Part shown: positions 26,946 through 30,124 of the stretch, one piece after another
Position numbering within the stretch: position 1 is the stretch's first letter
How the letters are laid out: each line of letters begins with the position of its first letter
NCBI RefSeq assembly: GCF_004116465.1
Contig: NZ_PDJV01000009.1
Coordinates: 1 to 64,000, forward strand
Length of the DNA: 64,000 bases
Source of the DNA: Arcobacter sp. F2176
GTDB taxonomy: Bacteria > Campylobacterota > Campylobacteria > Campylobacterales > Arcobacteraceae
Reading direction: 5' to 3'
Notes under the pieces: model-generated
The model's input: only the letters and a program-made list of their open reading frames with translations
Told to the model about the DNA's origin: nothing
Database searches by the model: none
Translations under genes and position numbers: made by a program

Positions 26946-27917
26946 CTATAGAAATCCCATTTCTTTCATCAAAGATGAGATTGTTTTTTCTTGATTTTCT
27001 AGGAATGTTTTAAATTGAGTTGTTGGTTTATATAAATTTGCCCAACCATTTCTTGATCTAACTGTTTCCCATTCTTTTGTTTTGTACATATCCCCAAGAA
27101 CTTTTGCAAAAGCATCGATTTTTTCTTGTGGTAAGTTTGGTGCTCCAAAAAATCCTCTCCAGTTTGCAAAGTATGCATCAACACCCATGCTTTTGAAGCT
27201 AGGAATTCCATCAATTGATTCATCAGAAGTAACACCTATGATTCTTAACTCACCTTTTTTATGTTTTTCTAAAACTTCTCCAAGTCCTGTTGATAAAATA
27301 TCAACTTCACCTGTTAATAATCCTGCAAGTGCTTTTCCTCCTGCATCATAAGGAACATATCTTACATTTGTTGGGTTTCCACTTGCTGCTTTAAAGATTT
27401 GTGCAGCTACAAGGTGATCCATACTTCCTCTTGAACTTCCACCTGCGATTTTTAGTTTTCTAGGGTTTTTATCAAAAGCAGCTTTTACATCAGCCCAAGT
27501 TTTATATTTAGAGTCAGTTCTTACAACTAAAGCTCCATAATCAGCAACAACAGCTGAGATTAGAGATAAGTCTCTAAATGATTGAGGAAATACACCTTGT
27601 AATGATCTAATTACGATTGGAGTTGAATTTACCATTAATGTATCTTGTTGTTTGTCAGCAGTTTCTATTAAGTAAGCGATAGCTTTTCCACCACCACCTC
27701 CTGACATATTTTCAAAAGAAGTTTCGTCAACTAAACCAGAATTCTTAAGAGCTTCCCCAACTCCTCTAGCAGTCCCATCCCAACCACCACCGGCACCACC
27801 AGGGATTAGGAAATGGATTTTTTCAACTTCTGAAGCAACAGAAGTCATAGCTAATCCAGCAACTAAGCAACTAGCCAATGCAACATTTTTGCAAATTTTT
27901 GAGATTTGTAATTTCAT
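26946..27917 (-). CDS. tctC: Tripartite tricarboxylate transporter substrate-binding protein
   Basis: 323 aa from the chosen start. Signal peptide about 1-28 (basic start MKLQISKICK, hydrophobic core, cleavage near SVASE). The mature periplasmic protein shows the TctC/Bug pattern: IHFLIPGGAGGGWDGTARGVGEAL, then GGGGKAIAYL, KLKIAGGSSRGSMDHLVAAQIF and VPYDAGGKALAGLLTGEVDI. The open frame extends to 28073, but 27917 is preferred: AAGGACG lies 7 nt upstream and only this start gives an exported protein. First gene of tctCBA-RR-HK. Two candidate small-RNA units lie upstream. Confidence 0.95.
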   Translation of the reverse strand: MKLQISKICKNVALASCLVAGLAMTSVASEVEKIHFLIPGGAGGGWDGTARGVGEALKNSGLVDETSFENMSGGGGGKAIAYLIETADKQQDTLMVNSTPIVIRSLQGVFPQSFRDLSLISAVVADYGALVVRTDSKYKTWADVKAAFDKNPRKLKIAGGSSRGSMDHLVAAQIFKAASGNPTNVRYVPYDAGGKALAGLLTGEVDILSTGLGEVLEKHKKGELRIIGVTSDESIDGIPSFKSMGVDAYFANWRGFFGAPNLPQEKIDAFAKVLGDMYKTKEWETVRSRNGWANLYKPTTQFKTFLENQEKTISSLMKEMGFL

Positions 27918-28031: not shown

Positions 28032-28102
28032 AAAAAAAAAGAGGCTTCGTGGACCTCTTTTTTTGGAGAACAAATGAAAAAAGACGTTCGCATTCGTCTT
28101 AT
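28032..28102 (-). ncRNA. Candidate small RNA A (tandem copy, tctC-proximal)
   Basis: On the minus strand a TATAAT box (28114-28109) is followed about 7 nt later by a predicted start near 28102. Then come a 6-bp hairpin AAGACG/CGTCTT with an 8-nt loop, a single-stranded linker CATTTGTTCTCC, a second hairpin AAAGAGG/CCTCTTT (28054-28060/28038-28044) and a run of six or more U. The predicted length is about 70 nt. A near-identical unit lies about 210 nt upstream. It does not look protein-coding: the two copies differ by a 4-nt indel. It could instead be an attenuated tctC leader. Confidence 0.55.
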
Positions 28103-28108
28103 GAAATA

Positions 28109-28167
28109 ATTATAACGGTTGATGATAAATGGATAAACAATCAAAGGTTAACAAAAAGATAACTTGA
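28109..28167 (-). promoter_or_regulatory. Promoter and upstream control region of small RNA A
   Basis: 59 nt including the -10 box TATAAT (28114-28109). It aligns without gaps to 28317-28375, with 47 of 59 identities. Conserved blocks, read on the minus strand, are AGTTATCT-like, TTAAC, TTGATT and TTTATCCATT. Such conservation upstream of a -10 box suggests regulator binding, perhaps by the adjacent tct response regulator. Confidence 0.5.
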
Positions 28168-28243
28168 CTAAAAGTTTATAAATTTGTAAAAAAATGTAAT
28201 AGTAAAGTTTGAAAATAGATTTTGAGTTTGTATATTTTTGGGC

Positions 28244-28310
28244 AAAAAAAAAGAGGGTTCGCGACCTCTTTCTTTAGGAGAACAAATGAAGACGTTCGTA
28301 TTCGTCTTAT
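28244..28310 (-). ncRNA. Candidate small RNA B (tandem copy)
   Basis: Same architecture as copy A: TATAAT (28322-28317, with an upstream TG at extended -10 position), predicted start near 28310, hairpin AAGACG/CGTCTT, linker CATTTGTTCTCCT, hairpin AAAGAGG/CCTCTTT (28265-28271/28250-28256) and a U-run from nine consecutive A on the plus strand (28244-28252). About 67 nt. The unit stands free of any neighbouring gene, with its own promoter and terminator, which supports a real small RNA more strongly than copy A. Confidence 0.6.
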
Positions 28311-28316
28311 AAGATA

Positions 28317-28375
28317 ATTATAACAGCTGATAATGAATGGATAAATAATCAATAGTTAATGGATAGATAACCTGA
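28317..28375 (-). promoter_or_regulatory. Promoter and upstream control region of small RNA B
   Basis: Counterpart of 28109-28167. The -10 box TATAAT is at 28322-28317 with TGT before it. Conserved upstream blocks TTTATCCATT and TTGATT lie at the same distances as in copy A. No -35 consensus is evident, as is usual for sigma-70 promoters in this phylum. Confidence 0.5.
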
Positions 28376-28393
28376 TGGGGAAATTTCTCTTGA

Positions 28394-28499
28394 AGACCTA
28401 AAGGTCTCCGCTTTCTTACTTTTTGGTCTCGAAAAAGTAAGCAAAAAAGACTGCCGAATTGATGAAGGCAGAGCTACCTAAGATTTCAGTCTTTTTTTT
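28394..28499 (+). other. Cluster of nested hairpins ending in a T-run
   Basis: Three inverted repeats in a row: AGACCT/AGGTCT (28394-28399/28402-28407), CTTACTTTTT/AAAAAGTAAG (28415-28424/28432-28441) and AAAAAAGACTG/CAGTCTTTTTT (28443-28453/28487-28497), the last enclosing TGCC/GGCA (28452-28455/28467-28470). Eight T follow on the plus strand. No ORF of note. It may be a terminator complex, a small RNA or a mobile-element remnant; it abuts repeat copy 3. Confidence 0.45.
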
Positions 28500-28568
28500 C
28501 TGCGTTGTGGAACTCGTCAATAAAGTGCATTTAGCACTTTATCTCCTCAAACAGTCCTCACTGTTCCC
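28500..28568 (-). repeat. Dispersed nested palindromic repeat, copy 3
   Basis: Minus strand: GGAAC, then GAGGAG, a strong inner hairpin ATAAAGTGC/GCACTTTAT (28534-28542/28520-28528 in plus coordinates), TGACGAG, GTTCC and finally CAACGCAG. The outer stem is GGAAC/GTTCC (28509-28513/28563-28567). It shares the order and the GGAG, TGA and CAACGCAG boxes of copies 1 and 2 but has different stem sequences. It lies about 100 nt before the KAP NTPase gene. Confidence 0.55.
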
Positions 28569-28663
28569 CGAAAAAAAAGCCTAAACTCTTAGCTTCATCA
28601 AAGGCAGGATTTAGTGCCATACGGTTAAAATAGTGACTATAAATAAAAAGTTAAAGAGTTGTT

Positions 28664-30124
28664 ATGCATAAAAATATATGGGATAATGATAAATTAAATA
28701 GAAAGAGTGAATCAGAATACTTGATTAAGTATTTGACAAATGTTTATAAAGCAAATAAAGAATCATCATTTGTTTTAAATATAAATTCTGAATGGGGTTT
28801 TGGTAAGACTTATTTCTTGAAAAATTTAAAATTAGAACTTGAAAATGCAGATCATAAAGTAATGTATTTTGATGCATGGCAAAATGATTATACTAAAGAG
28901 CCTCTACTCGCATTTATTGCAGAGATAAATGAGAGCTTTAAATCATTTTTTACTGCAAAACAAACTAAATCAAAAAAGTTTCTTACTGATTTGTTTAAAA
29001 GTTCATTACCAATATTAGTTGCAGCTCTTAGTAAAAAGCTTACAGGTTATTCATTAGAAGATTTAAAAGAACAACTTGAATTGGATGAGAATGAAGGCAG
29101 TGAAAATTCTGCTGATGAAATTGATGATGACAAGGATTCAATTAAAACTTCTATTTCTACTTTAATGTCAAAAGCAACTGAAATCGCATTAGAAGAACAT
29201 ATGACTGCTAAAAAAAGTATTTTAGAGTTTAAAGAAAATATGAGAAAACTCATTTCTTATATTGATTCTTTATCAAATATTGAACTACCTATATATATTT
29301 TAATTGATGAATTAGATAGATGCAGACCAAATTATGCAATAGAATTACTTGAAAGTATTAAACACTTGTTTGATATACAAGGCTTAGTTTTTATTATTGC
29401 AACTGATTCAAAACAGTTATCACATTCTATAAATGCAGTTTATGGGAGTAAATTTAAATCAGAACAGTATTTAAAAAGATTTTTTGATAGAGAGTATACT
29501 TTAGATGAACCTTATGTTTATGATTATATTTTATTTTTATTAGAAAAATATAATATGTTAAAAGATGATAATTTTTATGTTGCACTGGATGAATATGCGT
29601 ATAATGATGTAAATAAAAATGCTAAGATTATTGAGTTATATGCTAAATTTTTTAAATTAAGTCTTCGAGATATTGAACAGTGTATCATTGTATTGAATGC
29701 TATTACTTTTACTTGGGATACAGAAAATAAAATTCATTTAGGATATATGATTTTTTTGATTATGTTAAAACAAAAGAATTCAACTATATTTGAATCTTAC
29801 ATAATTTATGATAAAAAATCATCTTTGGGAAATAAATTTAGTGAATGGTTTAAAGAAGATGAATTAAATAGGAAAATTAAAATTAGAGTAGATGATGGCA
29901 ATAATGAATCTACTTTAGAGGCTCTATTAGGAGAATACTCAAATTTTGAATTTTTAACATTTGCTAAATCTAACCAACTATCTGGAAAAGAAAACAATTT
30001 TAATTATTTGAATATTAGAAAAGAAGTTCCTATATATACAAGTTTTTATAATGATAATAAGATAATTTTTAAAGAGTTTAAAGATTATTACAAATATGTT
30101 TTAAGAGGTTTTAGAATTAATTAA
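28664..30124 (+). CDS. KAP-family P-loop NTPase
   Basis: 486 aa. Walker A at about 41-50 (NSEWGFGKTY) and Walker B at about 207-217 (IYILIDELDRC), followed by the KAP-typical RPNYAIELLESIKHLFDI and VFIIATDSKQLSHSI. An acidic low-complexity insert (about 140-160, ENEGSENSADEIDDDKD) separates two helical parts. No clear membrane helix is seen, although many KAP proteins have them in this insert; LPILVAALSKKL is only weakly hydrophobic. KAP NTPases are patchily distributed and linked to membrane-associated processes, and some to phage defence or exclusion. The gene is solitary, faces away from both neighbouring operons and is bracketed by two palindromic repeats, so it is probably an acquired gene. 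Function unknown. Confidence 0.88.
   Translation: MHKNIWDNDKLNRKSESEYLIKYLTNVYKANKESSFVLNINSEWGFGKTYFLKNLKLELENADHKVMYFDAWQNDYTKEPLLAFIAEINESFKSFFTAKQTKSKKFLTDLFKSSLPILVAALSKKLTGYSLEDLKEQLELDENEGSENSADEIDDDKDSIKTSISTLMSKATEIALEEHMTAKKSILEFKENMRKLISYIDSLSNIELPIYILIDELDRCRPNYAIELLESIKHLFDIQGLVFIIATDSKQLSHSINAVYGSKFKSEQYLKRFFDREYTLDEPYVYDYILFLLEKYNMLKDDNFYVALDEYAYNDVNKNAKIIELYAKFFKLSLRDIEQCIIVLNAITFTWDTENKIHLGYMIFLIMLKQKNSTIFESYIIYDKKSSLGNKFSEWFKEDELNRKIKIRVDDGNNESTLEALLGEYSNFEFLTFAKSNQLSGKENNFNYLNIRKEVPIYTSFYNDNKIIFKEFKDYYKYVLRGFRIN

Follow-up and report, generated by a model that had tools for sequence, protein, structure and literature searches.

The window, as the whole analysed stretch of 64,000 nt is called here, belongs to contig NZ_PDJV01000009.1 of Arcobacter sp. 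F2176 (genome G000) and carries two tandem small-RNA units on the minus strand at 28032-28375, where an initial annotation had placed them. Each unit shows the architecture proposed in that annotation, i.e., a TATAAT element, a 6-bp hairpin with an 8-nt loop, a CU-rich linker, a second hairpin (GC stem), and a U run (nine T). In unit A, the TATAAT element (28317..28322) puts the probable start near 28310; the predicted RNA of approx. 67 nt (sRNA A, 28244..28310; covariance model score of 78.7 bits, 100% identity to genome G001) consists of hairpin 1 (28289..28308; stem AAGACG/CGUCUU, loop AAUACGAA), the linker UUCAUUUGUUCUCCUAAAG (28272..28290), and a terminator hairpin with its U run (28244..28274), recognised from sequence and fold. 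Unit B repeats this order, with TATAAT at 28109..28114, a predicted start near 28102, and an RNA of approx. 71 nt (sRNA B, 28032..28102; 98.8 bits, 99% identity to G001) that comprises hairpin 1 (28081..28100; loop AAUGCGAA), the linker region UUUUUUCAUUUGUUCUCC (28065..28084), and the terminator hairpin and U run (28032..28064; sequence and fold). The predicted lengths agree with the approx. 70 nt estimated earlier, and the 4-nt indel noted between the copies is located between hairpin 1 and the linker, such that the reading frames of the copies differ. Each unit has its own promoter and intrinsic terminator and no conserved open reading frame, as expected from the sequence of an independent transcription unit. 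No Rfam family reached its gathering score in the region of the pair.

The nearest downstream neighbour is a tctC-like gene (26946..27917, minus strand), which is not among the predicted targets. In each of the three congeneric genomes, the stretch that separates the oxoacid:ferredoxin oxidoreductase operon from the pair is occupied by a different anti-phage candidate, namely a KAP NTPase (PDC-S20; window 28664-30124), a CAP12/PCTIR TIR protein (PDC-S35; L027:5931-6842), and an OLD/AriA-like ATPase (L026:6229-8064), and this position looks like a defence-gene exchange spot. The interval separating unit A from the KAP gene (28385-28640) is a structured, GC-richer block with GACGAGTTCCACAACGCAGAAAAAA at 28494-28518; among the loci examined, the block was found only at G000's own, and its edge CTCTTGAAGACCTAAAGGTCTCCGCTTT is common to G001 and, less exactly, G002.

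RNA structure and conservation in the Arcobacteraceae

A 900-base region around the pair contains three terminator-like sites, two of which are the first hairpins of A and B, compared with 0.4 expected from shuffles, and the full-length folds of the two RNAs have z-scores of -2.3 and -3.1. The description of unit B needs to be corrected in one respect: in its minimum-energy fold, the hairpin loop pairs with the linker and hairpin 1 is absent. Loop-linker pairing thus competes with hairpin 1 in this copy and hides the seed discussed below, which counts against the explanation favoured here. The comparative evidence for hairpin 1 is strong. Across seven distinct sequences, two of which are RNAs of a related type (see below), all 42 of 42 cells are paired, i.e., 100%, with double changes at five of the six pairs, and the covariation score of 0.952 (0.247 in shuffled alignments) was equalled by none of 500 shuffles, as expected for a structure under selection in a trans-acting base-pairing sRNA. 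The loop AAURCGAA occurs in all seven sequences (in G084, it is AAUUACGAA). A loop that remains constant while its stems vary freely is what would be expected if it contacts something; this constancy is partly a product of how the sequences were chosen because the two related-type hairpins were found by means of the loop, which leaves the covariation of the stem unaffected.

DNA and covariance model searches bore out the conservation of stems and linker that had been set as a test. The tandem pair is present in all three genomes of the genus examined (G000, G001, and G002), complete with promoter and terminator, and single copies, also with promoter and terminator, are found in three other Arcobacteraceae genera (G034, G084, and G059). 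Across 399 sampled genomes of the order, searched with strict filters that may pass over divergent members, no match was obtained outside the Arcobacteraceae. A comparison of G000 with G001 gives 99-100% identity for the RNA parts and 93-98% for the promoters, against 75% in the flank upstream of A, 91% in the spacer, and 88% in the gap before tctC. The earlier suggestion that selection acts at the level of RNA is supported: stems covary, RNA parts are better conserved than flanks, and reading frames are not kept. Matches to the pattern TATAAT...AATRCGAAC across the family are mostly chance occurrences inside genes, and only the known loci, a third gene of G002, and locus L116 look real; in a scan of genome contigs, the same holds for only Arcobacter sp. 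BM504 and BM102 among 44 matches. Weak covariance model matches at L072, L073, and L074 were rejected as being of low complexity, coding, or devoid of loop and promoter. The member in G059 (L071/L150, Arcobacter sp. BM102) has an extra 5' hairpin (GAAAAGG...CCUUUUC) in front of the conserved one, and its linker, AUUCAUUCUCCG, is also different; together, these features suggest a changed target.

Promoter repeats shared with the htrA operon

A DNA match to the region upstream of the sRNAs pointed to the htrA (degP) promoters of another genus (L020 and L023). In htrA promoters, four TTAAC-type repeats are spaced by 11 bp and the last repeat starts 15 nt before the -10 element; in the htrA promoters of the genus itself, the first spacing is off by one base. 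The same arrangement is found on the minus strand at both units. Unit A has four TTA(A/T)C-like repeats (28323..28370; repeats at 28370, 28359, 28348, and 28337, i.e., at 11-bp spacing), the last of which begins 15 nt before the -10 element, and unit B has TTATC/TTAAC/TTGTT/TTTAT (28115..28162) with identical spacing and distance. With a matrix trained only on nine htrA promoters, a scan of 952,132 positions of G000 gave the highest score (34.7) to a third sRNA-like gene, followed by unit B (30.4), htrA (29.4), and unit A (18.0), and the next site, an unrelated one, scored 15.5. When the genus was left out of the training, the third gene (36.8) and unit B (27.6) held against a column-permuted maximum of 20.1, whereas unit A (13.5) came near chance. 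The sRNA promoters of G001, G002, G034, G084, and G059 carry the operator in the same register. An htrA-type operator at a fixed distance from the -10 element is therefore a property of the pair, although the element of A is weaker.

In each of the nine genomes examined, the genes of an OmpR-type response regulator (domains Response_reg and Trans_reg_C) and a histidine kinase (HAMP and HisKA) come next after htrA, the exception being the second htrA of G059. The C. jejuni two-component system CprRS affects envelope genes, including htrA, and its response regulator is essential (PMC4518328). To judge from gene order, the htrA-linked regulator is presumably the orthologue of CprR.

The third sRNA-like gene (G000:C9:116291-116460; L011/L028, at L028:4292-4460, and also L009 and L012) is divergent from a flagellin gene and would encode an RNA of approx. 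113 nt with a UUCUCC linker and a terminator; no htrA-type operator in the scanned sequence is stronger than the one in front of it. Its counterpart in G002 has AAUGCGAA as the loop of the first hairpin. The same loop is displayed on a fully different stem by a candidate sRNA of G091 (L116, around position 1500, minus strand) with the linker UUUUCUCCUUG; no htrA-type operator was found at this unit.

Predicted targets and rival explanations

The linker had been described as CU-rich; it is UC-rich indeed, and more than that, it is exactly antisense to a start-codon region: UUCAUUUGUUCUCC is the exact reverse complement of GGAGAACAAAUGAA, i.e., a Shine-Dalgarno sequence with a start codon. In G000, the 14-mer GGAGAACAAATGAA occurs exactly only at the start of a cytochrome c553 gene and in the two sRNA genes, whereas in G034 and G084, it is the major outer-membrane porin (Campylo_MOMP) that has the exact linker site at its start. 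Exact sites also lie at genes of G093, G096, and G022, which are porin-like in G093 and G096. The porin of the genus studied here reads GGAGAUCAAAUGAAAAAAUUCGUA, with one mismatch to the linker, followed collinearly by UUCGUA in codons 4-6, which can pair with UACGAA of the loop. Thus, the linker of sRNA A would serve as the main seed, antisense to the Shine-Dalgarno sequence and AUG, and the loop of hairpin 1 as a second one.

Pairing energies, which leave target accessibility aside, were compared with those of 403 start regions from a 400-kb sample plus the window (approx. 14% of the genome), with start codons picked by a simple rule. The porin MOMP_C6 of G000 gave -26.5 kcal/mol with A and -26.0 kcal/mol with B, values that were reached by none of the 403 background regions and by none of 1000 dinucleotide-shuffled RNAs, complementarity to Shine-Dalgarno regions being partly generic. 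With linker and loop combined, the result was likewise 0/403 in G001 (unit A), G002, G034, and G084; 57/403 background regions were as good in G059, the porin start region of which fits the loop and not the linker, and 14/403 for the G091 unit. MOMP paralogues on contig C8 showed no pairing above background. The motif [AU]UCG[CU]A occurs within the first 30 nt of only 3 of 403 background genes, and the variable R of the loop fits the variable Y of the porin codon in five genera: A in the loop faces UUCGUA in this genus and AUCGUA in G084, and G faces UUCGCA in G034 and G059 and AUCGCA in G091, while the loop of B in G000 and G001 forms a G-U pair at this position. The pair therefore has an unlinked candidate target with complementarity above background, as expected of an sRNA, and this is the start region of a porin mRNA, the kind of site used by MicA and RybB, here by prediction.

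The second candidate is cytochrome c553, and an alternative is that c-type cytochromes (c553 and possibly cytochrome c peroxidase) are the main targets of a respiration or haem-sparing circuit in which the porin is secondary. The longest uninterrupted pairing is that between the linker of B and c553 (18 contiguous pairs without a gap, compared with 17/18 with the porin mRNA); at the c553 start, A, B, and the third RNA (the linker of the latter at -21.8 kcal/mol) each surpass all 403 background genes, and the start region of a cytochrome c peroxidase-like gene is among the best background matches for B and the third RNA. However, the conserved loop does not fit c553, and outside the genus, c553 start regions match their own sRNAs only in the case of the third-type RNA of G091, whereas the porin is matched in g3 and g17. 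Moreover, the promoter is of the envelope-protease type and has no recognisable Fur site. We regard this alternative as unlikely. A role of the pair as sibling sRNAs of central carbon or carboxylate metabolism, comparable to NmsRA/NmsRB (NgncR_162/163) and acting on the tct operon as a target linked in cis, is quite improbable. The NmsR-like tandem arrangement, the high identity of the copies, and the single-stranded UC-rich anti-Shine-Dalgarno linkers (PMC5362039) are compatible with it, as is an oxoacid:ferredoxin oxidoreductase gene nearby in G000, G001, G002, G034, and G084, but the promoter belongs to the htrA set, the best targets are the porin and the cytochrome, and the start region of tctC is ordinary, with 91/403 (unit A) and 127/403 background genes as good. 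Furthermore, only G000 and G001 have tctC downstream of the sRNAs, its place being taken by a ferritin-like gene, a glutathione peroxidase gene, an HD-domain gene, and others in G002, G034, G084, and G059. Because of this changing neighbourhood and the ordinary target scores, the link to carboxylate use and the tricarboxylate transporter drawn by the initial annotation was rejected.

The remaining explanations concern other uses of the same DNA. The units share their strand with tctC and precede its start by 115 nt in G000, with a similar arrangement in G001, which might suggest that they act in cis on the tct operon as a leader or attenuator, or else that they are decayed, functionless repeats. 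Nonetheless, a complete terminator closes each unit, the neighbouring gene differs between species, the stem shows compensatory changes, and the RNA parts are 99-100% conserved, compared with 75-91% for the flank upstream of them, the spacer, and the gap on the downstream side, which makes this explanation scarcely credible. On the plus strand, the reverse complement of each linker is a Shine-Dalgarno sequence with ATG and opens a frame of 8-13 codons, as if a short peptide with a strong ribosome site (AGGAGAACAAATGAA...) were held in check by the minus-strand RNA in the manner of a type I toxin-antitoxin system. The frames are not conserved (MKTFVFVL, MKKDVRIRLMK, MKINVRIRLL, and MKNRRS), and for this reason the peptide was rejected; in addition, it is on the minus strand that all the recognised signals lie, from the matched promoter and TATAAT to the covarying hairpin and the U run. 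Such a system is very improbable, and the plus strand has the look of a ribosome site because the linker is antisense to the porin start.

The proposed circuit and known systems

Within this context, we consider it probable that the units are sibling trans-acting sRNAs of an envelope-stress regulon, driven together with htrA by a shared operator and repressing translation of the major porin, with c553 as a second likely target. Envelope damage would activate the htrA-linked, CprRS-like two-component system, the OmpR-type response regulator of which is predicted to bind the four 11-bp TTAAC-type repeats and to activate, rather than repress, both sRNA promoters and htrA, such that HtrA and with it the three sRNAs would rise. 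The UC-rich single-stranded linker of A and B would then cover the Shine-Dalgarno sequence and AUG of the porin mRNA, while the apical loop AAURCGAA of hairpin 1 would pair with codons 4-6, thus occupying two collinear sites. Ribosome binding would be blocked and porin synthesis would fall, which would relieve the periplasm at a time when HtrA is removing damaged envelope proteins. The mRNA of the periplasmic cytochrome c553 might be silenced in parallel by the linker alone. A more far-reaching proposal, which we consider evenly balanced between right and wrong, is that this family, new in sequence, supplies a CprRS-like envelope stress response of Campylobacterota with its RNA arm and represses the major porin via a bipartite seed, made up of the linker and the hairpin loop, which looks like the porin start in inverted form. 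Read as its reverse complement, sRNA A gives TTTAGGAGAACAAATGAAGACGTTCGTA, i.e., 'MKTFV', where the porin has 'MKKFV'. In the open papers searched, we found no description of an sRNA from the Arcobacteraceae or of this circuit. For this family, three putatively co-regulated RNAs and two targets open to experiment are now available.

The comparison with the Neisseria siblings NmsRA/NmsRB made by the initial annotation stands as regards the tandem layout and the unpaired anti-Shine-Dalgarno linkers, and falls as regards the role in carbon metabolism. Both systems consist of tandem, near-identical sRNAs with UC-rich single-stranded anti-Shine-Dalgarno stretches between stem-loops (PMC5362039). 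However, NmsRs have three stem-loops with a UC-rich SL2 loop, whereas two are predicted for the Arcobacter pair, with loops AAURCGAA and of the CGCGAA type, and NmsRs are under RelA control with TCA/propionate targets, whereas the pair has an htrA-type operator and predicted porin and cytochrome targets. No curated Rfam family was matched by the pair at the gathering score, and Rfam may be without an NmsR model. Within the same phylum, C. jejuni CjNC140 and CjNC110 also have a CU-rich region, and CjNC140 adjoins porA and left PorA levels unchanged (PMC10470494); the Arcobacter family differs in that it was not found outside the Arcobacteraceae in the order sample. C. jejuni CprRS is similar in affecting htrA (PMC4518328), and here, the regulator sits inside the htrA operon. 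No sRNA arm of CprRS was found in the open papers searched; if the proposal is true, the pair would provide a concrete RNA arm for the htrA/CprRS-type response.

Porin-silencing sRNAs are a hallmark of enterobacterial envelope stress responses, in which they depend on sigma-E and Hfq, and the circuit is well known in E. coli. Its representatives MicA and RybB are sigma-E sRNAs of enterobacteria that repress porins (PMC6737893). The Arcobacter units resemble them in their length (approx. 70-80 nt), their own promoter and terminator, their proposed membership in an envelope-stress regulon, and the predicted repression at the porin start region. They differ in having no sequence relation (no Rfam match), in OmpR-type 11-bp repeats instead of sigma-E control, in their occurrence as tandem siblings, and in a seed divided over the linker and the hairpin loop. 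A dependence of the Arcobacteraceae pair on Hfq should not be taken for granted; C. jejuni is without Hfq and ProQ (for the absence of Hfq, see PMC8687705 and PMC10470494). If the circuit is as proposed, it would allow a compact test of the way in which long, bipartite pairing could operate in the absence of Hfq, and an unrelated RNA family under a two-component system in Campylobacterota would represent a convergent solution to the silencing of porins that MicA and RybB accomplish in enterobacteria.
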